DNA of 64,000 nucleotides from positions 2,807,001 to 2,871,000 of the forward strand of contig NC_015422.1 of the NCBI RefSeq assembly GCF_000204645.1, written 5' to 3'. The stretch comes from Alicycliphilus denitrificans K601 (GTDB lineage: Bacteria > Pseudomonadota > Gammaproteobacteria > Burkholderiales > Burkholderiaceae_C). Made by a program: the position numbers and the translations under genes. Positions 1,589 through 22,509 of the stretch are shown here, in pieces. Position 1 is the stretch's first letter. Every line of letters starts with the position of its first letter. Below the pieces are notes generated by a model, which was not told the origin of the DNA, made no database searches, and was given only the letters and a program-made list of their open reading frames with translations.

Positions 1589-6018
<4,430 letters not shown>

Positions 6019-6137
6019 TGGGTTCTCCGAAATGAGTCGGGTCGCCCGGAATCCGCAAAAAACGTTCTGCGGACTGCTGCTTGGTTGGGGATTTGCTTTG
6101 GATGCGGCCGGGCGACGTTTTTGCGGGAAAGCCTCTT

Positions 6138-6143
6138 ATTATA
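6138..6143 (-). promoter_or_regulatory. Likely carAB -10 box
   Basis: The minus strand reads TATAAT, a perfect -10 hexamer, about 120 nt upstream of the carA start. The expected -35 position is weak and GC-rich, so sigma-70 use with an activator, or control in the long leader, is possible. Confidence 0.55.
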
Positions 6144-6211
6144 GTGCGAGAGCCCGACCCTGCCGGCGCATTCGGCCTTTGCCGCAGGGCCGCCGCAATC
6201 GCCCAAAAAGC

Positions 6212-6244
6212 AAAAAGGGCCACCGCGATGCGATGGCCCTTTTT
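6212..6244 (-). terminator. Hairpin terminator beside the tRNA-Pro half
   Basis: An 11-bp stem (6212–6222 with 6234–6244) is flanked by A and T runs, so it can work in both directions. On the minus strand it follows the CCA end of the tRNA-Pro half, so it is probably the native terminator of the tRNA-Pro gene before the island inserted. Confidence 0.65.
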
Positions 6245-6250
6245 CTCATG

Positions 6251-6297
6251 AATGGTCGGCGTGGCGGGATTCGAACTCGCTACCCCTTGCACCCCAT
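6251..6297 (-). repeat. Attachment site: 3' half of tRNA-Pro(GGG), left copy
   Basis: On the minus strand this reads from the anticodon loop (TGGGGTG, anticodon GGG) through the T arm to the acceptor CACGCCG and ACCA. It is only the 3' half: no matching 5' half follows, and the flanking bases diverge at 6298. The same 47 bp recur exactly at 11271–11317. A tRNA 3' half repeated next to tyrosine integrases marks the att sites of integrative elements. It is the left boundary between core DNA (carA) and the island. Confidence 0.85.
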
Positions 6298-6430
6298 CTA
6301 GGTGATAGTACAATTTCATCACCATGAGCCGAGCACGGCAGACCACCAAATTTACTAGGTTTGTCAAATACTTAGGCGCTTCAAGTGTCTCATTGACTAG
6401 CCAAAGTGTTACGCTGTAGCTCATGAAGGT

Positions 6431-6454
6431 GTTGGGCTATTTGTTGGGCTATTT
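6431..6454 (+). repeat. 12-bp tandem repeat, candidate integrase arm sites (left)
   Basis: Two adjacent exact copies of GTTGGGCTATTT lie between the left att site and int1. The same pair, in the same orientation, occurs at 11195–11218 near the right att site of element 1. Paired short direct repeats inside both ends of an element are typical of arm-type sites bound by the N-terminal domain of tyrosine integrases. Confidence 0.6.
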
Positions 6455-6517
6455 TTCGATAGCCTCAGCCCAACAAGGTACAGCAAGGCCACCAGAAGGC
6501 CGCACAAGGGGCGAACA

Positions 6518-7939
6518 ATGACCGACACCACCCAACCCACCACCGCCACGGCGAAGCCCAAAGGCGACCGCTGGCAACACAAGGAGTTGGAGTCCACCCT
6601 GAAGAGCCCGGCGATCACCCGAGTGACCGAAGCCGGTGGACTGTATGGCGTGGTGAAGCGCCTCAAGGACGGTTCCGCGTCCGTGTGGTTCCGCTGGCGC
6701 TTCCGTCACGGTGGCAAGCTGGTTGACTTCACAGCGGGCTCCTGGCCGGGTGACTCCCTGGCAACCATCCGACAAGCCCATGAGTGGGCACAGTCCGAAG
6801 TCAAGGCAGGCCGCAACCCCAACGCCACCCGGCAACTGTCGAAGGTGCAGGAAGCCCAGACCCAGGCCGAGCAAATCCGCATCCATGAGAAGGAGACCGT
6901 GGAAGCCCTCGCCCTCAAGTGGCAGTCGGTGGAGTTGACGAAGCGCGTGTCTGGCGAACAAGAAACGGGGCGCTTTGATAACGGCGTGGAGTTGATCCGC
7001 AGCTTCACCAAAGACGTGTTTCCCGCCATCGGCTCCAAGCCAGTGCAAGCCGTCACCAAAACCGACTGCCTCCACATCCTGAACAGCGTCAAGGAACGCG
7101 GAGCCCTCCGCATGGCAAACCGCTTGCTGAACGACCTGACCCAGTTCTTCAACTGGTGCCGCGTCATGGGCTACATCACCACCAGCCCATTGGAGGACGT
7201 GCGCCGCAAGCATGTGGGCGGCAAGGCGACTCCACGCGACCGCGTTCTTTGGGACGTGTCGCCCACCACCACCCAGCCAGAAGCCGAGCTACAGGAACTC
7301 CACTCCCGACTGCCATCTGCACGCCTGCAACGAGAAAGCGAACTCACCATTTGGATTCTGTTGTCCACCATGGCCCGCGTGGGCGAAATCGCCAAGGCAC
7401 AGTGGAAGGATGTGGACTTGACCAAGGGCGTGTGGTTCCTGCCCGAGACCAAAAACGGCAAGGCGCACCACATCCACCTGAGCGCCTTCGCACTCCGACA
7501 CTTCCGTGAACTCCACACACTGACCGGCAGCAGCCAATGGGTTCTTCCTGGCAGGAACACACGCAAGGACGGCACGCCAGCCGATCACGTATGCCCGAAG
7601 TCCCTGGCGAAGCAGTTTGGCGACCGACAAGAACGTGACACGCCCATGAGTGGCCGCACCAAGGCGACTGGCACCCTCGCCCTACCCGGTGGTAAATGGA
7701 CACCGCACGACCTCCGCCGCACTGGTGCCACGATCATGGCCCATCTTGGCGTGTCGGTGGACATCATTGAGAAGGCACTGAATCACACCCCGGCGAACTC
7801 GTTGATTGCCGTTTACCAGACTGCCAGCCGCTTCCAAGAGCAGCAAGTCGCATGGGACAAGCTGGGTCAGCATCTGGATTGGGTGCTGAGCGGCAAGCAG
7901 TCCAACGTGGTGGCGCTCCCTCAGAAATTGAGTGCATAA
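6518..7939 (+). CDS. Tyrosine integrase of element 1
   Basis: A 473-residue site-specific recombinase that should insert and excise the first element at the tRNA-Pro site. The N-terminal part (residues about 15–110) has an arm-binding-like layout (GGLYGVVKRLKDGSASVWFRW). A core-binding domain sits at about 140–230. The catalytic domain shows the active-site Arg in LSTMARVGEIAKAQW, the HxxR box as TPHDLRRTGATIM, and the nucleophile region ALNHTPANSLIAVYQ. The start is supported by AAGGGG six bases upstream of the ATG. It lies 220 bp from the att site and points into the element. It resembles int2 in layout but is clearly different in sequence. Confidence 0.92.
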   Translation: MTDTTQPTTATAKPKGDRWQHKELESTLKSPAITRVTEAGGLYGVVKRLKDGSASVWFRWRFRHGGKLVDFTAGSWPGDSLATIRQAHEWAQSEVKAGRNPNATRQLSKVQEAQTQAEQIRIHEKETVEALALKWQSVELTKRVSGEQETGRFDNGVELIRSFTKDVFPAIGSKPVQAVTKTDCLHILNSVKERGALRMANRLLNDLTQFFNWCRVMGYITTSPLEDVRRKHVGGKATPRDRVLWDVSPTTTQPEAELQELHSRLPSARLQRESELTIWILLSTMARVGEIAKAQWKDVDLTKGVWFLPETKNGKAHHIHLSAFALRHFRELHTLTGSSQWVLPGRNTRKDGTPADHVCPKSLAKQFGDRQERDTPMSGRTKATGTLALPGGKWTPHDLRRTGATIMAHLGVSVDIIEKALNHTPANSLIAVYQTASRFQEQQVAWDKLGQHLDWVLSGKQSNVVALPQKLSA

Positions 7940-8526: not shown

Positions 8527-8850
8527 ATGAACAAGTCACCGAAGTTCTCCCCGGAAGTCCGCGAGCGCGCCGTTCGCATGGTGCAGGAGCACCGAGCCGA
8601 CTACCCGTCGCTGTGGGCAGCCATTGAATCGATTGCGCCCAAGATTGGCTGCGTGCCGCAGACCTTGAATGACTGGGTCAAGAAGGCCGAGGTCGACAGC
8701 GGCCAGCGCCCCGGCACCACCACGGCAGACGCCCAGCGCATCAAGGAACTGGAGCGTGAGGTCAAAGAGCTGCGCCGGGCCAACGACATCCTGAAGACGG
8801 CCAGCGCGTTTTTCGCGCAGGCGGAGCTCGACCGCCGATTGAAGTCTTGA
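8527..8850 (+). CDS. IS3-family transposase OrfA
   Basis: A 107-residue OrfA. The N-terminal helix-turn-helix is [20 protein letters not shown] with [14 protein letters not shown], and the C-terminal leucine-zipper-like helix reads [20 protein letters not shown]. The latter normally joins OrfB by programmed frameshift to give OrfAB, which binds the IS ends. Its TGA overlaps a TTG that opens the orfB frame (8847). The gene itself is intact. Confidence 0.9.
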
Positions 8851-9762
8851 AGAACTACATCGACCGCCACCGTGATGACTACGGGGTCGAGCCCATCTGC
8901 CGGGTGCTGCAGATGGCCCCGTCGTGTTACTGGCGCCACGCAGCCCGGCAACGCAACCCGCAACTGCGCAGTCAACGCGTCCAGCGTGACGAGGGTTTGA
9001 AAGCCGACATCCAGCGCGTGTGGCACGCCAACTGGCAGGTCTACGGGGCCGATAAGGTCTGGCTGCAGATGAACCGCGAGGGCATCGCAGTGGCGCGCTG
9101 CACGGTCGAGCGCCTCGATGCGTGCCATGGGCTTGCAAGGAGCACGCCGTGGCAAGACAGTGCGCACCACCACGCCGGACACATCGGCACCGTGCCCGCT
9201 GGACCACGTCAACCGGCAATTCAAGGCCAGCCGGCCCAACGAGCTGTGGGTGTCGGACTTCACCTACGTCTCCACCTGGCAGGGCTGGTTGTACGTGGCC
9301 TTCGTGGTGGACGTGTACGCCCGGCGCATCGTGGGCTGGCGGGTCAGCCGCAGCATGCAAACGGACTTCGTGCTGGATGCGCTGGAGCAGGCGCTGTATG
9401 ACCGCCAGCCAGCAGCCCATGCCTTGACGCACCATTCCGACAGGGGCAGTCAATACGTTTCCATACGCTACACCGAACGCTTGGACCAGGCGGGTATCCA
9501 GCCATCAGTGGGCAGCCGGGGTGACAGCTACGACAACGCACTGGCCGAGACCATCAACGGGCTGTACAAGGCCGAGCTGATTCACCGCCGGGGACCCTGG
9601 AAGACCAGGGAATCCGTGGAGCTGGCCACCCTGCAGTGGGTGCACTGGTTCAATCACGTCCGACTGCTCACGCCGATTGGGGGCATCCCTCCGGCAGAAG
9701 CTGAGGCAAACTACTGGAGGCAACTCGCCGTCAGCGACACCTCGACAGAGGTGTCAACTTAA
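8847..9762 (+). pseudogene. IS3-family transposase OrfB, frameshifted
   Basis: The DDE transposase is split between two frames. The first frame gives the start through VARCTVERL. At about 9114–9117 the sequence CTCG appears to carry one base more than the expected CTG, and the family continues in the next frame as MRAMGLQGARRGKTV. That second frame holds all three catalytic acids: the first Asp in WVSDFTYVSTW, the second in THHSDRGSQY and the Glu in NALAETINGLY. Unless ribosomal slippage rescues it, this copy cannot make transposase. The reading is clean elsewhere, so the mutation is probably recent. Confidence 0.85.
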
Positions 9763-9796: not shown

Positions 9797-11170
9797 CTAC
9801 CGAATCAGCATGTTGCGTATCCAGCGCAATACTGACCAAGTTGAAGGTTCGTTGACCCTCTCATTTGGTTCATCCTGAACCGTAGGCAACTGTTTGGCTT
9901 TGCTAATTGCTGCTAGATGTTGTTCGATCTTCTGAAGCGAACCACGAATATCTTTGATCGTGGTCGAATTGCGCCCCTCTATGGCATCGACTACTGCTTG
10001 TTCCATGCTTTTCATAGTTGCCATACCCCTGAAATGCTCGATAGATAGAACACAGGTGTCAACTACAGTTTTCTTCCGCCACATAGGGGGATTGAACTTG
10101 TAAGTGATGTCCAGCGGAAGCCCCCCTGCACCGAGTTCCTTTGCAAGACCGCCAAACTGCCCACCATGAAATACTAGACGTTGACCCGGCGCAAGCAAAG
10201 GAATGCCTGAAGTCGGTATGTAGCTTCCATGCCCAGATGGAGCTTCAATACCATACCAGCCGATAGGTATCGGTTTAGAGAACTTTATGTCGGTGGCATT
10301 GCCTGTGCCTACATTTTCTATGACCAGCTCTATGATTGATTGTTGCCGTTCACTTGGCTGATAGTACGCAACAATCTGCGGCTGAGAATTTTTGTATACA
10401 GCCACATAAGCAACTAAAGCAGCCAGCGCAGCGGAAGCCGGTGCTAAAAAATCAGTCAGATATTTATTCACATCGACGGGCACTAATAACCCCTTCCATA
10501 AAGGCGTCATCGGAAATGGTATCTGAAGGCCGCTAAGCTCAGGTGCAGCACCACCAAATATAGTGCCGACAAAGAGCAGGACAACGCCTACGGCGGATAT
10601 ATGGACACCACCTGTAGCGGTTGTCTCGATCTTCTTTGAGACATCGGCAAGCAGTCCGGCGAACTGTCTAGCCTGCACATCCAGCGCTTTTTGTGCCTTC
10701 TTCTCAGCTTGAAGAACCGCAATGTGTGTCTTCCCTTGGGCTTCCTCCAACTCTTTGATGATCTTTTCCAAGTGCTTCAAACGACCTTCAACCGTTTGAT
10801 CAGCCGATGGGCCATGAGTTGAGTATCCGTATGCCTCGCCAACCATGCTGGGGAACATCCCATTCATGGAAGCCTCGATGACGCGCGGATGATACGAGGG
10901 GAACTCCTTGATCCATCGTTGGAACTGCGACCTCACGGTCGGCTGTCCAAAGTCAGCCCGCGTCTTCAGGATGCCCCACACCACGGTCAACACACCACCG
11001 AGTTGCAGGAGCATCCCAGTCAGACGGAAAGCCCTCTCCGACCACCCACACAACCATGTGGTGACGACGGACACCACTACCACGGCAACGGCCCACCAGT
11101 AGTACGGCGCGACTGGCATCCTACGCACCCAGAGACCCACGTATCGCAACCAGCGTACGAACCTCTTCAT
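9797..11170 (-). CDS. Unknown membrane protein, cargo of element 1
   Basis: A 457-residue protein I do not recognise. Two likely membrane helices lie near the N-terminus (residues about 23–45, YYWWAVAVVVVSVVTTWL, and 48–68). A helical, charged segment follows (residues about 125–175, HLEKIIKELEEAQGKTHIAV and QAEKKAQKALD). Two more helices lie at about 195–215 (HISAVGVVLLFVGTIFG) and 237–260. The C-terminal half (residues about 265–370) looks beta-rich and globular, with IELVIENVGTGNATDIKFS suggesting an immunoglobulin-like fold. The start is strongly supported by AGGAGGGG four bases upstream. Its TAG stop lies directly against the IS right end, so the natural 3' end may have been cut by the IS. 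Base composition is lower in GC than the core genes. A defence or superinfection role is possible only by position. Confidence 0.6.
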   Translation of the reverse strand: MKRFVRWLRYVGLWVRRMPVAPYYWWAVAVVVVSVVTTWLCGWSERAFRLTGMLLQLGGVLTVVWGILKTRADFGQPTVRSQFQRWIKEFPSYHPRVIEASMNGMFPSMVGEAYGYSTHGPSADQTVEGRLKHLEKIIKELEEAQGKTHIAVLQAEKKAQKALDVQARQFAGLLADVSKKIETTATGGVHISAVGVVLLFVGTIFGGAAPELSGLQIPFPMTPLWKGLLVPVDVNKYLTDFLAPASAALAALVAYVAVYKNSQPQIVAYYQPSERQQSIIELVIENVGTGNATDIKFSKPIPIGWYGIEAPSGHGSYIPTSGIPLLAPGQRLVFHGGQFGGLAKELGAGGLPLDITYKFNPPMWRKKTVVDTCVLSIEHFRGMATMKSMEQAVVDAIEGRNSTTIKDIRGSLQKIEQHLAAISKAKQLPTVQDEPNERVNEPSTWSVLRWIRNMLIR

Positions 11171-11270: not shown

Positions 11271-11317
11271 AATGGTCGGCGTGGCGGGATTCGAACTCGC
11301 TACCCCTTGCACCCCAT
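11271..11317 (-). repeat. Attachment site: 3' half of tRNA-Pro(GGG), middle copy
   Basis: Identical over 47 bp to 6251–6297. The sequence to its right is not the tRNA-Pro 5' half, so this is the junction between two tandem elements, not the end of the array. The intact tRNA-Pro should lie at the far right end of the second element, beyond position 64000. Confidence 0.85.
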
Positions 11318-11436
11318 TCATTTTTGGGTAGATTTTGGTGGATTTCCGTGGATCAATAAAATCCTTTAAAAACAATAGGTTAAGCGATAAAATTAAAGAA
11401 AAGGAGTCCCAACAAATCCCCTACCATCCCATTTCT

Positions 11437-11460
11437 GGTGGACCCCTGGGTGGACCCCTG
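11437..11460 (+). repeat. 12-bp tandem repeat upstream of int2
   Basis: Two exact adjacent copies of GGTGGACCCCTG lie 15 bp before the chosen int2 start. The arrangement mirrors the 12-bp pairs of element 1 but with different sequence, as expected for arm sites of a different integrase. It could also act as an operator for int2. Confidence 0.45.
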
Positions 11461-11475
11461 GAAGCTGGAGAAACT

Positions 11476-12978
11476 ATGCGCTACCCAAAATCTGGCATTG
11501 GCCGGAAGTGGACGGTCATCGAGCTGAAAGCCATTGGTCCATCCTGGAAGGGCGAGGTCCTGAGCGACGGTGACGGCCTCAGCGGCCAAGTGCTGGCCGC
11601 CGCTGACGGCAGCGTTTCCATCAAGTTCCGCTACGGGTTCAAATGGGATGGCAAGAAAACATGGCACTACTGCGGTGCGTGGCCGACCGCGACGCTGGAC
11701 GAGATCCGGACGAATCGAGACAACGCACGGAAAGCTGTACGGGACGGCATCAATCCCAATGACCAGCGGAAAGCTGTTCGCATCGAGAACCGCCTTCAAG
11801 TAGAACGGGTTATCGCAGAGCAGAAAAAACGGGACGCCGACAACATTACTGTGCAGTCCCTGTTCGACGCCTGGGTAACCGATGGCGTCAAGCGCGAGGA
11901 CAACAACGCGGAAATCAAGCGTTCTTTCAACAAGGACGTTCTGCCCGCCATCGGCACCCTACCTGTGAAGGATGTGACGGAGCACCACATTCGGGCTCTG
12001 CTTCGAGCGATGGTCGATCGAGGAGTCAATCGGCTCGCCGTCATCGCCTCCCATGATCTCAAGCAGATGTTCGTCTGGGCGGAGGAGCGGCAGCCATGGC
12101 GGCGCCTGCTGCAGGAAGGGAATCCGACAGCCCTTGTGGCAGTCGAGAACCTTGTGGATGCCGACTACGATCTTTCCAACGAGGGCACCAGAACCCTTTC
12201 TCCGAAGGAAATCAGGGAGCTGCGTGACATCTTCGCTGCCATGCACCAGGCCTACGAAGCGGCTCCCGACAAGCGCCGGGCCAAGCGGCCTGTCTTGAAG
12301 GAGACGCAGTTGGCCCTCTGGATCAGCCTGTCCACGGCCTGCCGCATCGGCGAACTGCTCATGGCCGAATGGAAGCACGTGAACTTGGAGATCGGGGCGT
12401 GGTTCATCCCCAAAAAGAATGCCAAAGGGAAGCGCGGCAAGAAGCAGGACCAGGTTGTCTATCTCTCCGCTTTTGCGCTGAAGCAGTTCAAGGCACTCCA
12501 CGAGCTGACGAAGGCCTCCAAATGGTGCTTCCCGTGTGCCGACGGGGAAAACCACGTGAACGAAAAGACAGTCAGCAAGCAAGTGGGCGACCGGCAGTGC
12601 CGCTTCAAGGACCGCAAGCCGTTGAAGAACCGGGTTCACGACGATACGCTGGTCCTGTCCGGGGGTGAAAACGGCAAGTGGACACCTCACGACATGCGAA
12701 GGACAGCCGCAACGATGATGCAGCATCTGGAAGTGACACCAGAGGTCATCGACCAATGCCAGAACCATGTGCTGGCGGGAAGCAAAGTGCGACGGCACTA
12801 TCTGCACTACAAATACAGCAAGGAAAAGCGCGAAGCGTGGCGGCTCCTTGGAGAAAGGCTCACGGCAATCTTCGAAGGAAAGGACGAGGATGAATCGACC
12901 CGCGCGCCTGAAGTCGACATCGAGGCGCTTTTCATCCAATCGCTGAAAGAAGAGGCGGCTCTTGAGGCCCCGGCATGA
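11476..12978 (+). CDS. Tyrosine integrase of element 2
   Basis: A 500-residue recombinase. The frame stays open 141 nt further upstream, but the ATG at 11476 is chosen because GGAG lies six bases before it and the extra upstream sequence would translate the 12-bp repeats. The catalytic domain shows the first Arg in LSTACRIGELLMAEW, the HxxR box as TPHDMRRTAATMM and the C-terminal tyrosine region CQNHVLAGSKVRRHYLHY. Residues about 130–210 form the core-binding domain (QSLFDAWVTDGVKREDNNAE). It presumably mobilises the DNA from 11271 to beyond the right edge of the window. Confidence 0.92.
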   Translation: MRYPKSGIGRKWTVIELKAIGPSWKGEVLSDGDGLSGQVLAAADGSVSIKFRYGFKWDGKKTWHYCGAWPTATLDEIRTNRDNARKAVRDGINPNDQRKAVRIENRLQVERVIAEQKKRDADNITVQSLFDAWVTDGVKREDNNAEIKRSFNKDVLPAIGTLPVKDVTEHHIRALLRAMVDRGVNRLAVIASHDLKQMFVWAEERQPWRRLLQEGNPTALVAVENLVDADYDLSNEGTRTLSPKEIRELRDIFAAMHQAYEAAPDKRRAKRPVLKETQLALWISLSTACRIGELLMAEWKHVNLEIGAWFIPKKNAKGKRGKKQDQVVYLSAFALKQFKALHELTKASKWCFPCADGENHVNEKTVSKQVGDRQCRFKDRKPLKNRVHDDTLVLSGGENGKWTPHDMRRTAATMMQHLEVTPEVIDQCQNHVLAGSKVRRHYLHYKYSKEKREAWRLLGERLTAIFEGKDEDESTRAPEVDIEALFIQSLKEEAALEAPA

Positions 12979-13226: not shown

Positions 13227-13997
13227 CTATTGGGCCGGTAACTGCAGAGTCATTCGCAAGAGAAGCTCAGAGGTTTCATCTTTCGGTTCAGTCTTGCCCA
13301 CTTGGGAATTGTTTGCACGAACGCTGGACACCACTTTCAAGTAGCTCGCCCCCGCAGCGAGCTGACTTTTTGCCGCGTCGATCAGGCCAAGCCTTGATGC
13401 AGGATCAAACATCAGCAACAACCCCAGGATCACAAGACCATTGAAAAAGCGCCGCTGCGCCACCTTGATGAAGGTGAGCTTCAGGTTAATGGTGTCGCGG
13501 TTGCGCCTGCCTTGCAGTAGCGACTGTTGGATCAGAATCTTTTGAAGGTTCTTTTTCTGCTCCTTGACTTGGACAATGTCCTCCACGCCTATGACGTGAT
13601 AATTGGCGACTGCGAGGGTTTTGAGGGCCCAGTGGGCCGCGGTAATGAAGTAGATGACCGCCAGGATAAAGATGCCTGTCCACGCGAAACATCCCCAACC
13701 CGGAGAACAAGTCAACGAGGGCCCGGCGTTGCCGATAGCCCATGTCATCAATGGAATCAACGCGGCGACGGCAGCAAGGTAGGTCGTCGCCCGGGCTTCG
13801 GCTCCAGCTTTTCGTTTGTCTTCTTCATCCGTGATGCGCCTCGCCGCCTCGAGATACAAGGAGGCCTCGGCGTCACCTATGCCCTGCAGGTCCTGGATAC
13901 GCGCATCCAGTTCGCGGCCGTCCTGCTGAAGCTTAGCGAGCTCCGCAGGAGAGCACATTTCAGGCCGTGGCCAAATCGCCTGCAGTAGCTTGTTCAT
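13227..13997 (-). CDS. Membrane protein coupled to the graspetide ligase
   Basis: A 256-residue protein of unknown family. Residues 15–65 are charged and helical (AELAKLQQDGRELDARIQDL). Three likely membrane helices follow at about 71–88 (YLAAVAALIPLMTWAIG), 104–126 (FAWTGIFILAVIYFITAAHW) and 184–200 (FFNGLVILGLLLMF), with a basic helical stretch between the last two. The ATG overlaps the ATP-grasp gene by 38 nt, so the two are translationally linked. A possible internal start at 13958 has no clear ribosome site. In a peptide locus with no ABC transporter, this protein could anchor the ligase, help export the product or give self-immunity; none of these is shown by sequence. Confidence 0.65.
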   Translation of the reverse strand: MNKLLQAIWPRPEMCSPAELAKLQQDGRELDARIQDLQGIGDAEASLYLEAARRITDEEDKRKAGAEARATTYLAAVAALIPLMTWAIGNAGPSLTCSPGWGCFAWTGIFILAVIYFITAAHWALKTLAVANYHVIGVEDIVQVKEQKKNLQKILIQQSLLQGRRNRDTINLKLTFIKVAQRRFFNGLVILGLLLMFDPASRLGLIDAAKSQLAAGASYLKVVSSVRANNSQVGKTEPKDETSELLLRMTLQLPAQ

Positions 13998-14943
13998 TCG
14001 CGATCTGCGCCAGCTCGGCCACGATGGCGGCGGCGATGGGATGCCCCGTCCGGGTCTCTATCCATGCCCACTGGCCATTCGGATTGATCTCAAGAAACCA
14101 CAACTGCCCTTCAGGGTCCAAGACGAAATCCAGCGCTCCGAAGCGCAGGCCCAGGCTACGCGTCATAGCTATGCATTTCCGGGCGATCTCGGACGGAAGG
14201 ACGTAAACGGAGTGCGCCAGGTCCGGCGCCGAAGTCTTGCGCCAGTCCACCTCCGTTTCAGGGTGGCCTTGGGAGTCAATAGTTACGGCAAACACCCGAT
14301 CCCCAACAACCGTGGCGCGCACGTCATATCGTTTCTTGATTTCCCGTTGAAGTATCAGTGGGCAGACCCTGATGGAGAGAGGGTCGGTTTGCGCATCGAT
14401 GTGGACGCGGGAGGTGAAGACGACCCTGTCGGTACGTTGCCCCTTCACGACAGCGTTTCTCAGCGGTTTGCCGACAACCCTTCTTTCCGCGGCAAACGCC
14501 TGTGCAGCAACCGGAGAATTGCCGATCAGCGTCTCGGGTATCAGAAACCCGAGCCTCCGGGCAACAGTTAACTGCCTGATCTTGTCCTCAGCAAGCGCTA
14601 TCGCGTGAGGGGCATTGAGCCAGCGATCCCCGACCGCCCAATAGAGCGATTGCAATGTCGCTTGCCACTCTACGGCAGCGTAAGCCTGTTCGGCCTCGTG
14701 AATGTCCGAAAGCGGCTCGGGGGTGCCTGGCCTCCGAAAGTACGCAGCCTTGACACGAGACAGGTCGAAAGACACCCCTTGGAGATCGAAATGCCAAGCA
14801 TCGTCTACTTCTGGCCGACAGTAGAAGGCACCTTTCGGGAGTTCTTCCGTATTGAGCCTCAGGTAGGCGAGCCCCTTGCGTTGAAGCTCAAGTACGATGA
14901 AATCGCTCGTTAGGTCCCTTTGGCTGGTGACGATGAGAATCAT
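13960..14943 (-). CDS. MvdD-type ATP-grasp ligase (graspetide synthetase)
   Basis: A 327-residue ATP-grasp enzyme of the microviridin/graspetide family. These enzymes use ATP to join Thr/Ser or Lys side chains of a precursor peptide to Asp/Glu side chains, forming macrocyclic esters or amides. Diagnostic features are the N-terminal YFRRPGTPEP (about 68–77), an ATP-binding lysine in VVGKPL (157–161), the family signature KKRYDVRATVVGDRVFA (about 203–219) and the metal-binding end FLEINPNGQWAWIE (283–296). Length is normal for the family. It starts 8 nt after the stop of the precursor gene and overlaps the membrane-protein gene downstream. The precursor carries matching Thr/Lys and Glu/Asp repeats, which makes the assignment strong. 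The ring pattern is not predictable from sequence. Confidence 0.9.
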   Translation of the reverse strand: MILIVTSQRDLTSDFIVLELQRKGLAYLRLNTEELPKGAFYCRPEVDDAWHFDLQGVSFDLSRVKAAYFRRPGTPEPLSDIHEAEQAYAAVEWQATLQSLYWAVGDRWLNAPHAIALAEDKIRQLTVARRLGFLIPETLIGNSPVAAQAFAAERRVVGKPLRNAVVKGQRTDRVVFTSRVHIDAQTDPLSIRVCPLILQREIKKRYDVRATVVGDRVFAVTIDSQGHPETEVDWRKTSAPDLAHSVYVLPSEIARKCIAMTRSLGLRFGALDFVLDPEGQLWFLEINPNGQWAWIETRTGHPIAAAIVAELAQIANEQATAGDLATA

Positions 14944-14951
14944 GGCCTAAT

Positions 14952-15296
14952 TCAGTCGTCGCGTTCCATGTTGGCAAACGTCTTCGTAGTGAGCCCCAGC
15001 AGGTGCGCATTCCAGTCCTGGTCATCCTGCTCCGCCTCGGCCTTTGTTTTAGTTTGCAGTTCCAGCAAGGAGGGCTCGGAACTGTCGTCCCGCTCCAACT
15101 GTGCCTCGGTTTTCGTGGTCAGCTCAGCCAAATTCGCCAGCGCTTCGACGATTGGCGCCCCCTCCATAAGCCATACATGCCGTTGTCCACAATAGGCCCC
15201 CGGCAACTGGGCGTTACCGGTGCGCTCAATGGACGCTGCGGTGAGCAGCGGGCTAATCCGCCCCCTTGGCGGCGGTTGCAATTGGGGCTCTGTCAT
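14952..15296 (-). CDS. Graspetide precursor peptide with three core repeats
   Basis: A 114-residue precursor. The first half (residues 1–55) is a leader-like region (PRGRISPLLTAASIERTGN) with a single Cys. The second half holds three copies of the pattern L-[TQ]-T-K-T-x-A-x-x-E-x-D-D: residues 59–71 (LTTKTEAQLERDD), 80–92 (LQTKTKAEAEQDD) and 102–114 (LTTKTFANMERDD), spaced 21 and 22 residues apart. The last repeat ends exactly at the stop codon. Thr and Lys side chains facing a Glu/Asp cluster are what graspetide ligases join. The ATG at 15296 is chosen because GGGAAG lies close upstream. A TTG start 36 nt earlier would add 12 residues but has less support. It sits 8 nt before the ligase gene. 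Confidence 0.85.
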   Translation of the reverse strand: MTEPQLQPPPRGRISPLLTAASIERTGNAQLPGAYCGQRHVWLMEGAPIVEALANLAELTTKTEAQLERDDSSEPSLLELQTKTKAEAEQDDQDWNAHLLGLTTKTFANMERDD

Positions 15297-15466
15297 GTTT
15301 TCTTCCCGGAAACGATGCAGCAAAAGGCTCAAGCCTCTATCTTATTCGTAGCAGGGAGAAACATCGACCGGATCGTTTCCTCTGTCTCCCACGCCCATCG
15401 GGCGGTCACTTATGCGATGCCATCCACTCCTGCCGCACGGGTGCTACGCGCGGACAGTGGCAACGC

Positions 15467-15940
15467 TCAGTCCGCTGCTGCGGTCGCCAGGGACCAGGCC
15501 CAATCCGGCTTCCCAGGATACTGGCTGCTGTCGCTAGGCACCGCGCCAAGGCGCTTGAAAAAGCGTTCATGCGCCTCGGAGTACGCGCGCTCGCTGAACA
15601 CAATGGTCTCGGTTTCAAACTCATCCCTCAGGGCACTTGCGAGGCCGCGCGCAATTGCAAGACCAAAACCCTTCCCCACAAATTCGGTTTCAACCGCGAA
15701 GTGCTCCACCACTGCGGTCTTGCTGTCGCGCAAGCGCCACTGATGAACATAGGCACCCTGCCTCCCGTTGATCCTTATGTACAGATCCGGGGTGGAAGCT
15801 CTGGCGCTCTGCAGTAACCCGATTCCCTCGTGCTGCTGATAGAGGCAGGCGTATCGGACAAACCGGTGCTCCAACGCTTGCCTTATCACGTCGTCGTCCA
15901 GCATGGGATCTAGCTTTGCAGATCGGCGCGACCATGGCAT
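15467..15940 (-). CDS. GNAT-family N-acetyltransferase of the graspetide locus
   Basis: A protein of about 157 residues (ATG at 15940; an in-frame GTG at 15952 would add four). The acetyl-CoA binding motif A of GNAT enzymes appears as VEHFAVETEFVGKGFG followed by LAIARGLASAL, and motif B includes ERAYSEAHERFFKRLGAV. It lies upstream of the precursor on the same strand with a gap of about 170 nt. Microviridin loci also carry a GNAT enzyme (MdnD) that acetylates the peptide N-terminus, so the same tailoring step is plausible here. A role outside the pathway cannot be excluded. Confidence 0.7.
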   Translation of the reverse strand: MPWSRRSAKLDPMLDDDVIRQALEHRFVRYACLYQQHEGIGLLQSARASTPDLYIRINGRQGAYVHQWRLRDSKTAVVEHFAVETEFVGKGFGLAIARGLASALRDEFETETIVFSERAYSEAHERFFKRLGAVPSDSSQYPGKPDWAWSLATAAAD

Positions 15941-16024
15941 GTTCCAGCCCACAGCGTTTCCTTCGTGGTTTGCGGATTCCGATCATTCCATCCAGCGGCG
16001 CGGCCCCACGGCTCGGCCGCAGGG

Positions 16025-17521
16025 CTAGATCACTGGACGGTTCTGATCGATCTGCCATTCATAGATCCCGGCCGCCTCGACGACCCGGACCTTGTCCGAA
16101 GCCTTTAACGTGCCCCCCAACTGGCTCCCGATGTCGTGCTGCATGGCTAGGCTGTGCTCGGCCTGCTTGAGCAGAACCCCGCCTTTCACCACGCCGATGT
16201 TTGTGACCTTGATGAAGAACTTCTCCGCAGCCCGCGAGCCATGTAGACTCACTGGCACTACATCAGTCGGCTTCAGTTGCCCATACTGGCTGCCAAGCCC
16301 ATACAGCGTGACCTCCCGGCGTCCGTGCTGAAGCCGCGCATGCGTGGCCGCATCAAGGGTAAGGGCAGGGCCACTGTGGACCGTGCCAAAACTGGGCGCG
16401 GAAAATCTGTCGGGAAAGACGGCCTTGCGGGTCAGCCCCTCCAGCGGGACCTGCGTGTGCTCATTGATTTCCAGGTATTCGTGGAAACCGGCGAAGGGGC
16501 CGTGCTTCGCCTCGTACGGCACATAGAGATGGGGCATATCGAACACGCTGTCGCCCTTGTCATCGATGTACGCGATCGCGTCAAAGCGAAGCAGCGCACG
16601 GCGCACCAAGATCGCGCGGCGGGCCCTGGGTAGCAGTTCCCAGAAGCCCTTGACCGCGAGGCATTGCGCTTGTTGCTGTTCCTCCTGCTGGTCTCCGAGG
16701 GACACGTCTTCGTCCACCAACTCCGTGCTGTCCCATTCGCCGCCTTCGCGGTCGAGGTAGGCGAAGTGCCTGGCCTCCGTCACGACCAGGCCACATGGAT
16801 CGAAGGAGTGCGCTTTGTACTCTTTCCACCGGGGATTTTTGTCGAAGTCCGGGTAGTCGCCCTCGTAGGGATAGCTTTCGTCGTCCAGATCGCGGACCAG
16901 CACGCGCTGGACAGGGCGGTCGCCCAACACCCGCATCAGCTTGTTCTTGGCCAGCACCGTGGAACGAACGGAGGCGGCCCGGGACCGCCGCCTGGTCGCC
17001 AGTGACAGGCCGAAAAAGGCGAACAGGATGTGGTCGTTCTTGGGCTGAAAGAGCATGTCCTCCAGCTCGCCGGCGCCCCACAGATAGAACTCCATGACTC
17101 CGCGGGACCTGAGCTCCTCGCGGAAGCGGTCGTGCGCGGCCTTGGAGAAATGCACTGGCGCCGCCAGGATGTAGCCGTAGGGCGGCGCCTGCGCCGCCAC
17201 CCCATCCGAAATGATGGTGGCCACCTTCTTGGGCCCGACCTCCTTCTCGCGCTTGCACTGGATCATCCAGAGGTTGCCCTCCATCGGGTGCGGGATGTCC
17301 TCGGCGTCCGCCTCGTCGTCCATCACGGTCGCCGGCACCCTCGCCTCCTCGAAAGCGCGGACATCGAAACCGTCGTCGGCGCCGCCGCGCCCCGTGGACT
17401 CGATGGACTTCCACGGCCGGAAGTCATAGGCCAACTGGCGGACTAGGTCCTCGAACCGGTGAGGATCAAGGTCTTCGAAGTGAATCGGTCCGACCGTTCG
17501 CGTGATGTGTGGTTTAGCCAT
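16025..17521 (-). CDS. Mrr-like restriction endonuclease, probable anti-phage nuclease
   Basis: A 498-residue protein whose first 110 residues match the Mrr_cat endonuclease pattern of the PD-(D/E)XK fold: RFEDLVRQLAYDF (23–35), GRGGADDGFDVRAF (45–57) and WMIQCKREKEVGPKKV (85–100). The Asp and the QxK pair would hold the catalytic metal. Residues about 104–175 continue the fold (AAQAPPYGYILAAPVHFSK). The C-terminal two thirds are not recognised and may sense modified DNA or invading elements. Such nuclease plus unknown sensor proteins are common in defence islands, and Gabija lies 1.2 kb away. The recognition signal is unknown. Confidence 0.75.
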   Translation of the reverse strand: MAKPHITRTVGPIHFEDLDPHRFEDLVRQLAYDFRPWKSIESTGRGGADDGFDVRAFEEARVPATVMDDEADAEDIPHPMEGNLWMIQCKREKEVGPKKVATIISDGVAAQAPPYGYILAAPVHFSKAAHDRFREELRSRGVMEFYLWGAGELEDMLFQPKNDHILFAFFGLSLATRRRSRAASVRSTVLAKNKLMRVLGDRPVQRVLVRDLDDESYPYEGDYPDFDKNPRWKEYKAHSFDPCGLVVTEARHFAYLDREGGEWDSTELVDEDVSLGDQQEEQQQAQCLAVKGFWELLPRARRAILVRRALLRFDAIAYIDDKGDSVFDMPHLYVPYEAKHGPFAGFHEYLEINEHTQVPLEGLTRKAVFPDRFSAPSFGTVHSGPALTLDAATHARLQHGRREVTLYGLGSQYGQLKPTDVVPVSLHGSRAAEKFFIKVTNIGVVKGGVLLKQAEHSLAMQHDIGSQLGGTLKASDKVRVVEAAGIYEWQIDQNRPVI

Positions 17522-18745: not shown

Positions 18746-20503
18746 CTACACCTCAAAGCAACGATCAGCGCCGAACAGCGCCTGCATCCGCGCAGTTTTC
18801 GCCGCGGATGCTTTGCCCATGTCGATCACAGCGAGCCTCTGTCTCGCCCTAGAGCAGCAGACGTAGAAGACATTGCGAGAGCGGTTCGCACGTTCTGGGT
18901 TCGCCGCGTCGTCGGCTCCGGACAGGTACTTGTCGAATGAGTAGAAGTTCCACGCAGCGCCGGAATCGTCCAGCACCACCAACACGGTCTCGAACTCGTC
19001 ACCCTTCACCCCATGCTTCGTTGCGAAAGGCGTGTTGGTCATGAAGAACCGAGCGAATGCAGCGACCTGCGCGTAGGGAAGCGCCAAGAGTGCCGCGTAC
19101 AGCTTCGCGTCCGCCTGCTCTCGCTCTTGCGCGGCTTCATCCATCTCCGCGGTGAGGATGGGTTGGTTGTTCTCGAGGCGGATGCTCAGGTCATCGGTCA
19201 GCGGGAAGAGCTGACGATCTCGAATCGTCTCCAGCACCTCCCTGACAGTGCCCGCGCCGCGCTTGTCGATCAGCGTGTTCAGCGCGTCGCGGACGCCTGA
19301 CTTCGCGGCGCGACTGGCAAGCCGGTGACCCGCGCCATGAAGCCTGCCGAGCGTCTCGCCGATTTGTCCCTTCTCCCAAGCCTGCGCCAGCGGCTCCACC
19401 TTCTCCAGAAAGAAGGCGATCCGCCGATCGGAACCATCGGTGAGGGCATCTTTGGCGAAGCCGCCTCGATCCGCAAAAGCCTGCAAAAGGTCAGCGAAAC
19501 CGGCCTTGCGGGCAATCAGCCTGTGGGTGAGGTAGAGCTCACGCTTGCCGTGGCCAACCAGGTTCCAGGCCAAGGTGCCAGTCAGCAGCTCTCGTGCGCG
19601 CTGAAGGCCAGCTTCATCCGCCGCACCCCCGACTCGGATGTACGCGGCATCGCCTTGTACGTTCATGTTGCCCGGGATCTGTGTGATGTCGGTCCGGATC
19701 TTGTTCAGTACGTTGATGACGCTGAGGGAGCAGCGGCGGTTCTCACGCTTGACGATCACTTCCAGCGGCGCGGCGAGATCCGCCGGCAAGGTGCCGATCC
19801 CCTTGTGCTCACCGTGGTGATAAATGTTCTGCATCTTGTCGCCGAAGAATCCCAGCACGACCTTGCCACCGACCAAGGGCAGGATTCGGCGAAGCAGGAT
19901 GTCGACAACCGCCGCGCTGGTGTCCTGGTACTCATCGACGAAGATGTAGGGGTAGCGGCTCGCCACGATCCGCACCAACTTGTCGTACCTGGCATAGGCA
20001 ATACAGGCGATCGACAGCAGGTCGTCATGAAAGATCCGACCGTCGAGGAACTTGGAGCCTCGGTCCGAATACTTCACCTCGAGCCGGCCATCCACCTTCG
20101 CCCGCAGTTCAGCCTGATCGACTCGACGCGCGCTTGCCGGCGGTAGCGCCCCGTTGAAATCGAGCAGCGCTTGTCGGAGTGCCTGCTGATGGGGCTGCAG
20201 CGTGCTCCAGAGGAAGTCGTGGATGGTCGAGACCCGCACCAGGCTGTTGCCTTGAATCCGCTCGATCACTTGGTCCTTGGCTACGTTGGTATAGGTGATG
20301 CAGGCGATCTGCTGCCCGTCCCGTTTCAGCCTGTCCGCGATGGGTGGTGCGCACAGCTTCTTGAGGCCCTCGACCAGAGAGTAAGTCTTGCCCGCCCCAG
20401 CACCGGCGTCCAGCACGAAGCTTCGGCCGTTGGTGAGGCAATCGGCGATGCGCTCGTCCGCCGTCTTCTCCGGCTGTGCCGCGGTTACTGCTTCGCCAAC
20501 CAT
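18746..20503 (-). CDS. gajB: Gabija protein GajB, UvrD-like helicase
   Basis: A 585-residue superfamily 1 helicase. Walker A is GAGAGKT (34–40), followed by motif Ia near ACITYTNVAKDQ. Walker B is IFVDEYQDTSA. Later motifs are TKHGVKGDEFETVLV (motif V) and NVFYVCCSRARQRLAV (motif VI). Length and motif set match GajB, the helicase partner that works with the GajA nuclease in anti-phage defence. The start overlaps the gajA stop by 19 nt, so both are made from one message. Taken alone it could be any UvrD-like protein; the pairing with an OLD-type nuclease decides the call. Confidence 0.85.
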   Translation of the reverse strand: MVGEAVTAAQPEKTADERIADCLTNGRSFVLDAGAGAGKTYSLVEGLKKLCAPPIADRLKRDGQQIACITYTNVAKDQVIERIQGNSLVRVSTIHDFLWSTLQPHQQALRQALLDFNGALPPASARRVDQAELRAKVDGRLEVKYSDRGSKFLDGRIFHDDLLSIACIAYARYDKLVRIVASRYPYIFVDEYQDTSAAVVDILLRRILPLVGGKVVLGFFGDKMQNIYHHGEHKGIGTLPADLAAPLEVIVKRENRRCSLSVINVLNKIRTDITQIPGNMNVQGDAAYIRVGGAADEAGLQRARELLTGTLAWNLVGHGKRELYLTHRLIARKAGFADLLQAFADRGGFAKDALTDGSDRRIAFFLEKVEPLAQAWEKGQIGETLGRLHGAGHRLASRAAKSGVRDALNTLIDKRGAGTVREVLETIRDRQLFPLTDDLSIRLENNQPILTAEMDEAAQEREQADAKLYAALLALPYAQVAAFARFFMTNTPFATKHGVKGDEFETVLVVLDDSGAAWNFYSFDKYLSGADDAANPERANRSRNVFYVCCSRARQRLAVIDMGKASAAKTARMQALFGADRCFEV

Positions 20504-22509
20504 TCGAGCCCCTCTCGGATGTACTTAGGTGTTGCCCAGCCGCTGTTGGCCAGAAGATCAAGCGCGAAGTCGACCTTCGGCAGGCTGATCGCATAGGCGT
20601 CAGCGGTCAGAGCCGCGGCGTCCGCATGGGTGAAGGTGTCGCCGGTGGCGAGCAGCTTGGCCTTGTTAGCGAGCAGCCATGCCGAATTCGCATACACGAA
20701 GGCTTCCTCGAAGCTCCGTGCACAAGGTTGACCAGCGGCCTCCGCGACTTGGTAGGCGACTCGAACGCGGCCGGAGGTCTTCTCTGCTTCACCAGCTGCC
20801 ATCAGCTTGGGCAGGTCGGCACTGCCCGGCAGCCACTTCGACAGGGTCGCATTGCTGCTCGCGTGGCCGCTGGCGACAGGTGTCTTCTTCTTGGTGGTGC
20901 CGTCGATCGAGTCCAGATCGGTGATCACGAGCGCTGGCAGCTGCAGGAACTCGATCAGCTTTCGGAAGAGATGCGCATACGCGCCACCCACCTCCACCGT
21001 ACAGACATAGGTCGAAGTGAGCTTGTCGCGAAGTGCGGCTTCTAGTGCCGCGATCAGCCGAGGCAAGAGCATGCGCTCGACCTGTCCTTCGATGAACACG
21101 AGCTTGTCGGCAAAGAACATGTCGCATCGCGTCGTCGTGAGGTACTTCCGAAGGAACTCCATCGCGGTCTTCTCAGGGTCAGTCTTCGCCGAAGCCTCGA
21201 AGGACAGCAAGTCCTTGATCTCGACCGTGCCCTTATTGCGCCGGAAGTAGCGAATCGGCGCGAAGCCGCAGTTGGCCGCCATGTGCGACGAGTGCGTGGT
21301 GAGCAGCAGCTGCACGCCAGTCTCGCCGGCCGCGGGTGCAAGGAACTCGCTGACCTTCTGGACGAACACCGCCTGCATCTGGGGATGCATGTGGACTTCC
21401 GGCTCCTCGACGACCACCAGGTGCACGCGCGGACGGTGCTCAGGGTCTGACTCGACGTCCTCACGGAACGACTTCAAACACAGGACGATGTAGATCAGGT
21501 TCTTGAACCCGAGACCGTTGTAGCGTTCAGGCAGCTCGAAGGCTTGATCGATCGCCGCCGCGGCACCGTCGGCCGGCAATCCCGCAGCGGCGATGGCGGC
21601 GTAGTAGACGCGCGTCGTGTCCTTGAAGAGCCCATCGGCGCTGAGCTCGGCGCGGACCGTCAGTTTGGGGGACTCGGGGTGGCCGAACTTCGCGAGGCCC
21701 TTCATGAGGCCATCAAAGGCCTTGACGTACTGGGGACCGAGCGCTGTGGACTGCTCTCGCAGCGTCTTCTCAAGCGCCTTGAAGTCGCTGGGCGCGTCGA
21801 CCTTGTACCGACGCTCGTAGTGGGCGTGGAGCAGCGTAGACAACCGCGTGGCCTTACTGCCCTCCTCACGATCGTCAATGTGGCGCTGTGCACTGACGAC
21901 ATCGATTCGAATCAGCCGCTGCAGGATGCCGCGGTCGGGCAGCCTCTCGGCTTGGGTGCCGTCCGGGCTCAGCTTGAACTGATCGAGCTTGTAGTGGTCG
22001 TGCAGCGTGACGGCAAGGTAGTCGGCGAAGGACTGGTCATCGTCACGATCTTTCATGTACGCCTCCGCCAGTTGCTGGGGGTTTGCAGGCCCGAATCGGA
22101 TCTCGACGGTGACGGTCGTGGACGCATCCTCCAGGTCCATCAGCAGTTCGCCTGCGAGTGCCAGATCCGGACCGGTGTCGTCGTAGTCGAACTTCAGTTG
22201 CAGCGACAGGACCGGCAGCGCAGGCAATGGCGGCGGCTCAGTCGCTGGAGCACCCGCGGCTGCCGCTGCTGGTGGCGTCAGGACGTGTGTCTCGAACTTC
22301 TTGAAGGCGTCACGGCAGCCAAGGGAGAAGTCGTTGATCGACAGCTGCTTTATCGGCCTTTGTAGGAACGCCAGCATGGCCTCGATGGTCGAGGTCTTGC
22401 CGCTGTTGTTGGGGCCCACCAGGATCGTCGTGATGCCCGTCGTGTCCAGCCGCATGCGCGCGTCCTGCAGCAGACGGAAGTTTTTGATGCCTATCTCGCA
22501 CAGCTTCAT
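20485..22509 (-). CDS. gajA: Gabija protein GajA, OLD-family ATPase/TOPRIM nuclease
   Basis: A 674-residue protein with an N-terminal ABC-type ATPase and a C-terminal TOPRIM domain, the OLD nuclease layout. Walker A is VGPNNSGKTS (31–40), the signature region includes YNGLGFKNLI, and Walker B is VHLVVVEEPEVHMHPQ. The TOPRIM acids appear in LVFIEGQVERMLLP and LVITDLDSIDG. GajA cuts DNA when nucleotides are depleted during phage infection. It is longer than the roughly 580-residue founding GajA, partly because of a Pro/Ala-rich loop at about residues 78–97. Its ATG overlaps the stop of the HU remnant upstream (ATGA). Confidence 0.85.
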   Translation of the reverse strand: MKLCEIGIKNFRLLQDARMRLDTTGITTILVGPNNSGKTSTIEAMLAFLQRPIKQLSINDFSLGCRDAFKKFETHVLTPPAAAAAGAPATEPPPLPALPVLSLQLKFDYDDTGPDLALAGELLMDLEDASTTVTVEIRFGPANPQQLAEAYMKDRDDDQSFADYLAVTLHDHYKLDQFKLSPDGTQAERLPDRGILQRLIRIDVVSAQRHIDDREEGSKATRLSTLLHAHYERRYKVDAPSDFKALEKTLREQSTALGPQYVKAFDGLMKGLAKFGHPESPKLTVRAELSADGLFKDTTRVYYAAIAAAGLPADGAAAAIDQAFELPERYNGLGFKNLIYIVLCLKSFREDVESDPEHRPRVHLVVVEEPEVHMHPQMQAVFVQKVSEFLAPAAGETGVQLLLTTHSSHMAANCGFAPIRYFRRNKGTVEIKDLLSFEASAKTDPEKTAMEFLRKYLTTTRCDMFFADKLVFIEGQVERMLLPRLIAALEAALRDKLTSTYVCTVEVGGAYAHLFRKLIEFLQLPALVITDLDSIDGTTKKKTPVASGHASSNATLSKWLPGSADLPKLMAAGEAEKTSGRVRVAYQVAEAAGQPCARSFEEAFVYANSAWLLANKAKLLATGDTFTHADAAALTADAYAISLPKVDFALDLLANSGWATPKYIREGLEWLAKQ

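Follow-up and report, generated by a model that had tools for sequence, protein, structure and literature searches.

A predicted graspetide precursor and its ATP-grasp ligase recur with a PycTM-like membrane protein as a three-gene unit

The locus described here lies in a 64,000-nucleotide stretch of the Alicycliphilus denitrificans K601 genome (hereafter the window; positions 2807001-2871000 of the larger of the two contigs of this 5.07 Mb genome). It consists of three genes transcribed from the minus strand in the order precursor (15296-14952), ATP-grasp ligase (14943-13960) and membrane protein (13997-13227), the start of the last lying inside the ligase gene so that the two genes overlap. 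As judged from the comparisons given below, this locus is a single copy of a three-gene module that is widespread and moves horizontally and that encodes a graspetide precursor, a graspetide synthetase and a PycTM-like membrane protein. A preliminary description of the same DNA had proposed a precursor and ligase pair, which is borne out, together with an upstream GNAT gene, which is not a member; the third gene, the downstream membrane protein, had been missed. The unit comprises the following features:

14952..15296, minus strand: graspetide precursor gene, 114 amino acids, from the ATG at 15296 and with the stop codon counted; 25 relatives were recovered, among them a 99% entry
15084..15122, minus strand: core 1 LTTKTEAQLERDD, residues 59-71
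15021..15059, minus strand: core 2 LQTKTKAEAEQDD, residues 80-92
14955..14993, minus strand: core 3 LTTKTFANMERDD, residues 102-114
13960..14943, minus strand: predicted graspetide synthetase (ATP-grasp ligase), 327 amino acids, with family-model and structure-relative matches
13227..13997, minus strand: PycTM-like membrane protein, 256 amino acids, with three hydrophobic segments, its gene overlapping that of the ligase at the latter's 3' end

Repeated Thr/Lys and Glu/Asp motifs had previously been noted in the precursor, and the 114-residue minus-strand frame indeed contains three copies of the core T-K-T-x4-E-x-D-D, for which the three cores use different codons. In 200,000 residue shuffles of the precursor, no sequence with at least two core copies was obtained and five carried a single one. 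Compared with the orthologue in L004 (L-numbers are labels of individual compared loci), the precursor gene differs at 26, 18 and 67 sites in codon positions 1, 2 and 3, respectively (67/111 in the third position); relative to the more distant L005 the corresponding values are 42, 35 and 73 (73/150), and the bias is weaker. Together, the shuffling result and the third-position differences argue that the precursor is a real gene under selection. Among predicted proteins, 25 relatives were recovered at E <= 0.01. In an alignment of the query with 24 of these (25 sequences, the 99% entry being omitted), T61, K62, T63, E68, D70 and D71 of core 1 are invariant, as are T82, K83, T84, E89 and D92 of core 2, with D91 retained in at least 90%, and core 3 is degenerate or lost in some relatives. 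In the leader, P16 and L18 are nearly invariant, and the potential donors (Thr, Ser, Lys) precede the Asp/Glu acceptors, as in graspetide precursors. Sequences of the PDB gave no match to the precursor at E <= 1.

The ligase starts 8 nucleotides past the precursor stop, as first described. Among NCBIfam models it is matched best by TIGR04187, 'ATP-grasp ribosomal peptide maturase' (259 bits at a cutoff of 350, E 6e-77), which outranks both MvdC and MvdD, all of them scoring below cutoff, and the match to TIGR04185 (E 2e-54) is likewise below the curated cutoff. The closest relatives in the PDB are the 'ATP grasp ligase' 5ig8 (E 3.5e-41), which we take to be a microviridin ligase, AMdnB (7.5e-36) and CdnC (9e-29), and the protein aligns along its length with synthetases of known structure. 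By these matches, it is a member of the graspetide synthetase family. Predicted proteins hold 1601 relatives at E <= 1e-3, and among database records an identical ligase is present in that of Acidovorax sp. GW101-3H11. The unit has one ligase; elsewhere in the genome there is a single further match, at a distance of 1.85 Mb and with 33% identity.

Using this ligase in a scan of reference genomes, we kept the best 80 loci, with identities down to 35%. An open reading frame (ORF) with the core pattern, in one to several copies or as a close variant, is found upstream of the ligase in nearly all of the 65 loci examined for it, a subset of these 80. In a wider count, 92 of 99 loci with a ligase match have an upstream candidate, and a loose pattern detects a core-like motif in 85; the pattern defined below yields 281 cores, 241 of them distinct, from 84 loci (79 among the best 80 and five others). 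Loci with this core and this gene order are found in Pseudomonas, sphingomonads, Vibrio, Rhizobiales and Bacteroidetes, among others. Although the core pattern is widespread, the module itself is sporadic: at E <= 1e-60 the ligase is found in 3 of the 398 genomes sampled from the phylum and in 1 of 369 from the class, own genome included, and the 10 of 299 genomes of the host family that match at E <= 1e-30 are all distant except for the own genome (best 2.1e-42).

The distinction from microviridin drawn at the outset stands, since the TKT-x4-E-x-DD core is unlike the TxKxPSD core of that group (group 1), which also has two paralogous ligases where the present unit has one. The accompanying proposal of a new graspetide subtype holds to this extent; the pattern and gene order recur across many taxa, and it is therefore no one-off. 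Closer in organization are the multi-core graspetides plesiocin and thuringinin, which likewise combine a single ATP-grasp synthetase with repeated cores (PMC8939145, PMC12291112), donors placed before acceptors and a P-hydrophobic-hydrophobic leader motif; they differ from the present unit, which has a Lys-containing TKT-x4-E-x-DD core, three predicted nested links per core and a conserved PycTM-like gene. Membership in group 7 (marinomonasin, Gra-3), whose clusters are reported to often hold an acetyltransferase (PMC13097080), was considered and ruled out: the GNAT gene of the window is not conserved, and Gra-3 relatives are described with four contiguous donors (PMC9576775), unlike TKT.

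To describe the cores, we number the first Thr as position 1; the search pattern fixed Thr/Ser at positions 1 and 3, Glu at 8 and an acid at 10, 11 or 12, and left positions 2, -1 and 13 free. Among the 241 distinct cores, Lys2 is accompanied by an acid at position 10 in 185 of 186 cases, compared with 28 of the 55 cores lacking Lys2 (p 2e-19; because the core sequences are related, this and the following p values overstate independence). Thr/Ser(-1) is present in 34 of the 55 cores without Lys2 versus 16 of the 186 with it, and an acid at position 13 in 42 of 50 cores with Thr/Ser(-1) versus 39 of 191 without (p 1e-16). Of 35 donor-acid position pairs, K2/10 (phi 0.69) and T(-1)/13 (0.55) alone stand out positively, the next reaching 0.18, and both share one register in which the positions sum to 12; negative association is strongest for 2/13 (-0.48) and -1/10 (-0.39), as would fit an exchange between the two rings. 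A similar trend was obtained within 22 precursors that contain both core types (70 distinct cores): acid 10 accompanies Lys2 in 33 of 34 cores and is present in 25 of the 36 others (p 0.003), the corresponding values for acid 13 being 12/34 and 30/36 (p 7e-5). The covariation is thus not only a matter of lineage.

These patterns suggest a model in which Lys-containing cores would be closed by the nested links T3-E8 (ester), K2-D10 (amide) and T1-D11 (ester), and Lys-free cores by T3-E8, T1-D11 and T(-1)-D13, so that T(-1)/acid 13 would replace K2/acid 10. Covariation bears on the K2-D10 and T(-1)-D13 links, and the predicted T3-E8 and T1-D11 links draw on conservation and fit. An alternative hairpin register with sum 11 (T1-D10, T3-E8) was set aside, as the data favour K2-D10 and T1-D11. 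The covariation in this way turns conserved residues into a specific ring connectivity that can be tested, without recourse to chemistry in its derivation. A nested triple cross-link in a stem-loop is described for OEP6-1 (PMC12291112), to which the three nested links predicted here are likened by description only.

The third gene was characterized by means of its position relative to the ligase. ORF clustering around the loci merged the ligases with the gene directly downstream (86 loci) and gave a precursor cluster of 71 loci; the next largest clusters, antisense to or around the ligase, cover nine loci and the remaining ones at most five. A membrane-protein profile built from 38 of the 80 loci and the window finds a match behind 73 of the 80 related ligases, the test being provided by the 35 matching loci outside the profile, many of which are close kin of profile members (L003 equals the window). 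The seven misses comprise L041 and L066, located at the ends of contigs, L079 (3e-5) and L082 (2e-5), which are borderline, L069, which is weaker (1.5e-3), and L060 and L075, which gave none. Behind other ATP-grasp loci of the host's family, the membrane protein was seen in 0 of 13 cases (nine genomes, with 375 to 1506 bases visible downstream). It is also absent behind 16 of 20 IMG/VR ligases, two of these ending at the ligase and L161 being borderline (1.3e-4); in several of the IMG/VR ligases that lack it, the next gene looks PIMT-type by eye. Searched alone against the 398 genomes, with at most seven candidates scored per genome, the profile gives five matches, and the three strong ones coincide, genome by genome, with the three that carry the ligase at E <= 1e-60. 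Of the other two, a weak one lies directly after a different ATP-grasp ligase (L184) and one is cut by a contig end. On these counts, the membrane protein is a dedicated partner of graspetide-type ligases within the 398-genome sample.

Two of the loci just named deviate in their precursors. The L184 operon (L184:2623-4963) has a four-repeat precursor of the GETxxTxTSEGxDQSE type, an ATP-grasp ligase 33% identical to that of the window (E 4e-54) and, from the same membrane-protein family, a distant partner, and possibly represents a second core type following the same logic. At the IMG/VR locus L161, near 6001-6969, a related ligase is accompanied by a precursor of another type with a single core; the membrane protein there (E 1.3e-4 to the family profile) has a PycTM-like ADNRxNIL stretch.

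At E <= 0.01 the membrane-protein family matches seven PADLOC models, all of the PycTM or 'Effector, 2TM' kind, the latter presumably representing effectors of the cyclic oligonucleotide-based antiphage signalling system (CBASS), and the PycTM model PDLC02364 is matched by 24 of 39 family members (best E 1.8e-7). Profile comparison by hhalign of the family with 11 PycTM-like proteins gave a probability of 92% (E 8.3e-7, score 47.1 over 127 columns), compared with a mean score of 18.0 (standard deviation 4.3, maximum 33.9) in 60 shuffles preserving local composition along the profile; the reversed control scored 13.4. These 11 proteins had been gathered with PycTM models, and L128 (partial), L132, L136, L134 and L137 were not in the set. 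A cruder comparison with eight PycTM-like proteins scored 39, as against at most 18 in three controls. By eye, the family shares the PycTM layout of a helix, two transmembrane segments, a cytosolic part and a third transmembrane segment, and the AlphaFold2 model of the membrane protein is confident and all-helical (mean predicted local distance difference test 87, predicted template modelling score 0.74).

Against this relationship, the window's own membrane protein is not among the PDLC02364 matches, the Pfam PycTM model does not match the family, and a home-made PycTM hidden Markov model recovered 3 of 39 members (0 of 39 reversed). In a structural comparison with the PDB by VIA-align, NINJ1 and Orai ranked at the top, within the chance range for helical bundles, and no PycTM was among the rows listed. 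PDB sequences matched the membrane profile at best with E 0.73, and a BFVD look-up gave none at E <= 1e-3. SLATT/DUF4231 was rejected as the nearest family, DUF4231 having been matched in one member alone at E 0.38. The membrane protein appears to be a remote relative of PycTM. In Pycsar anti-phage systems PycTM is the membrane effector, and it is described as a receptor which, upon infection, forms pores in the membrane (PMC11224242). The likeness to Pycsar (PycC and PycTM) and to the CBASS 2TM effectors consists of remote profile similarity and, by eye, the layout of this third protein; unlike in Pycsar, no cyclase recurs in the unit, and a peptide-cross-linking pair stands in its place. PycC is not among the recurring neighbour families in the ORF clustering, no dedicated PycC model search having been made.

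That a membrane protein accompanies the ligase so regularly could also mean that it serves as a scaffold or partner for cyclisation at the membrane, with the product acting elsewhere, which we consider very unlikely. The microviridin paper of Weiz 2011 reportedly names a membrane protein scaffold in its title. Furthermore, partner-protein-dependent graspetide synthetases exist, as reported for rosaritide (PMC13097080). Two observations argue against such a role: effectors are what the present family matches in PADLOC, and the alignment of the ligase with structurally solved synthetases extends along its length. Uncharacterized membrane proteins beside ATP-grasp loci are also described by Makarova 2022 (clusters 18 and 40, cluster 18 in thuringinin loci), and by their description these and the membrane protein analyzed here may be the same family. 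Transport was proposed there for cluster 18; effector, phage and defense go unmentioned in the accessible text of that work.

Regarding the genomic surroundings, the neighbours of the window's unit include an Mrr-like gene and a complete Gabija pair in the same island:

15467..15952, minus strand: GNAT-like ORF, a neighbour outside the conserved unit
16025..17521, minus strand: Mrr-like nuclease (PF04471 E 6e-4, just below cutoff; PADLOC PDC-M58A E 1.3e-4, weak candidate)
18746..20503, minus strand: GajB helicase, Gabija (PADLOC E 6.7e-155)
20485..22509, minus strand: GajA, Gabija (PADLOC E 9.3e-172)

For the GNAT-like ORF every Pfam match is below cutoff, and tblastn over 103 related loci found a relative in L003 alone, a record with the same ligase. 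The gene, which the preliminary description had counted as part of the locus, is hence excluded both as a member and as a tailoring enzyme. At other loci, six of ten hand-picked proteins matched defence genes, namely Gabija genes in two related Pseudomonas loci, GajA in a Sphingomonas locus, JetA, Tmn and an MkoC-like gene; the other four gave no match. More broadly, 125 neighbour ORFs matched 150 PADLOC families at E <= 1e-15, compared with 37 in 121 control ORFs from 19 arbitrary stretches of other genomes, a difference which is an indication only, since the count is of families and not of proteins. The neighbour ORFs came from 44 of 57 eligible loci, the window's own included and near-duplicate loci left out. 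Among the 25 families listed per set, GajA, GajB, JetA, SduA, QatC and QatD are each represented by two members in the neighbours, and the controls show single-member reverse-transcriptase-type models and one NDT model.

The same neighbour ORFs bear on the fate of the peptide. None of the 15 Pfam families with at least two members among the 125 ORFs is a peptidase or an ABC transporter, and both are absent from ORF clusters of four or more loci; an MbnB-type enzyme of ribosomally synthesized and post-translationally modified peptides (RiPPs) and a zincin-like peptidase occur once each. The designation as a compact RiPP locus, in its usual sense, is unsupported because no peptidase or exporter family recurs near the unit. 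These findings also count against a secreted graspetide, acting as protease inhibitor or bacteriocin, whose leader would be cut by a housekeeping protease and for which the membrane gene would provide a dedicated exporter or immunity protein. Neither does this alternative, which we regard as rather unlikely, agree with the absence of a Gly-Gly (GG) site by eye in the aligned precursors, nor with the PADLOC families matched by the membrane proteins, which are membrane effectors only. To our knowledge, a three-helix protein of this size is no known kind of exporter. What speaks for secretion is that the characterized graspetides are reported as protease inhibitors (PMC8939145). In the same source an unexplained membrane protein is taken as a likely peptide transporter, known transporters being absent, and the multi-core precursors resemble plesiocin, for which potency increases with repeats (PMC13097080).

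The unit is also found on mobile carriers, namely the P. aeruginosa plasmid RW109, the Leptospira phage LE1, a 16 kb unverified 'Bacteriophage sp.' contig and four IMG/VR contigs. A phage gene as such was dismissed as its identity: at E <= 1e-10, matches were confined to 2 of 50,697 phage records, so that phages carry the module now and then. Mobile carriers, patchy presence (3 of 398 genomes), tight coupling of the three genes and a membrane protein encoded last, mostly overlapping the ligase, would equally be expected of a toxin-antitoxin-like addiction module, in which a membrane toxin would be restrained by the cross-linked peptide and would serve plasmid or island stability instead of defence. 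We judge this unlikely as a full account, as addiction alone leaves the defence-gene neighbours unexplained, though such modules can double as defence. It is not separable from the restraining version of the model given below.

Taken together, the module's mobility, its defence-gene neighbours and the PycTM likeness of its membrane protein speak for a role inside the cell, in defence or addiction, more than for a secreted inhibitor. The explanation that we favour, tentatively, is an intracellular abortive-infection module in which the cross-linked peptide controls the membrane protein. The synthetase would tie each core as a nested stem, with up to nine dehydrations for the window's precursor. 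The product would stay in the cytoplasm, as the missing recurrent peptidase or exporter and the missing GG site suggest, and would control the membrane protein. Phage infection would disturb this control, upon which the membrane protein would permeabilise the inner membrane. With more doubt, we consider it possible that a macrocyclic ribosomal peptide serves inside the cell as signal or brake for an anti-phage effector that ruptures membranes, the graspetide taking the place of the nucleotide second messenger (cyclic in Pycsar) of Pycsar and CBASS. The gene order, with the regulator first and the effector last, would agree slightly better with restraint of the effector by the peptide than with its activation, the sign being a guess. 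If true, RiPP chemistry would be linked to bacterial immunity and graspetides would have a role other than secreted protease inhibition; the conserved PycTM-like partner makes peptide-controlled membrane effectors a directly testable alternative. No paper linking graspetides or ATP-grasp enzymes to anti-phage functions, SLATT, Pycsar or PycTM was found in the accessible texts (including PMC11118758, PMC9503650 and PMC7824862), all supplements and most subscription papers lying outside this search, and priority is not established.

Finally, the tRNA-Pro island proposed for this region is supported by two tRNA-Pro 3' fragments in the window, a matching intact tRNA-Pro(ggg) and a tyrosine integrase:

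11335..12978, plus strand: tyrosine integrase of the island (PF00589 E 8e-12, PF13356 E 1.7e-10)
11273..11315, plus strand: attachment-site repeat, tRNA-Pro 3' fragment
6253..6295, plus strand: second copy of the tRNA-Pro attachment repeat

ARAGORN detected no tRNA within the window. The intact tRNA-Pro(ggg) lies at genome position 2952152, about 81 kb past the right end of the window and about 134 kb right of the second repeat (11273-11315), and matches the two fragments with 0-1 mismatches; the unit lies right of both repeats. We read the span from the tRNA-Pro repeat to the intact tRNA-Pro(ggg) as an integrated island with putative ends. Between the repeats, a 457-residue membrane protein (9797-11170, minus strand) gave no informative family match in searches, and ORFs at 8847-9762 (plus strand) resemble an IS3-type transposase as read by eye. 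The two attachment fragments, 5 kb apart, suggest tandem elements or an island assembled stepwise.

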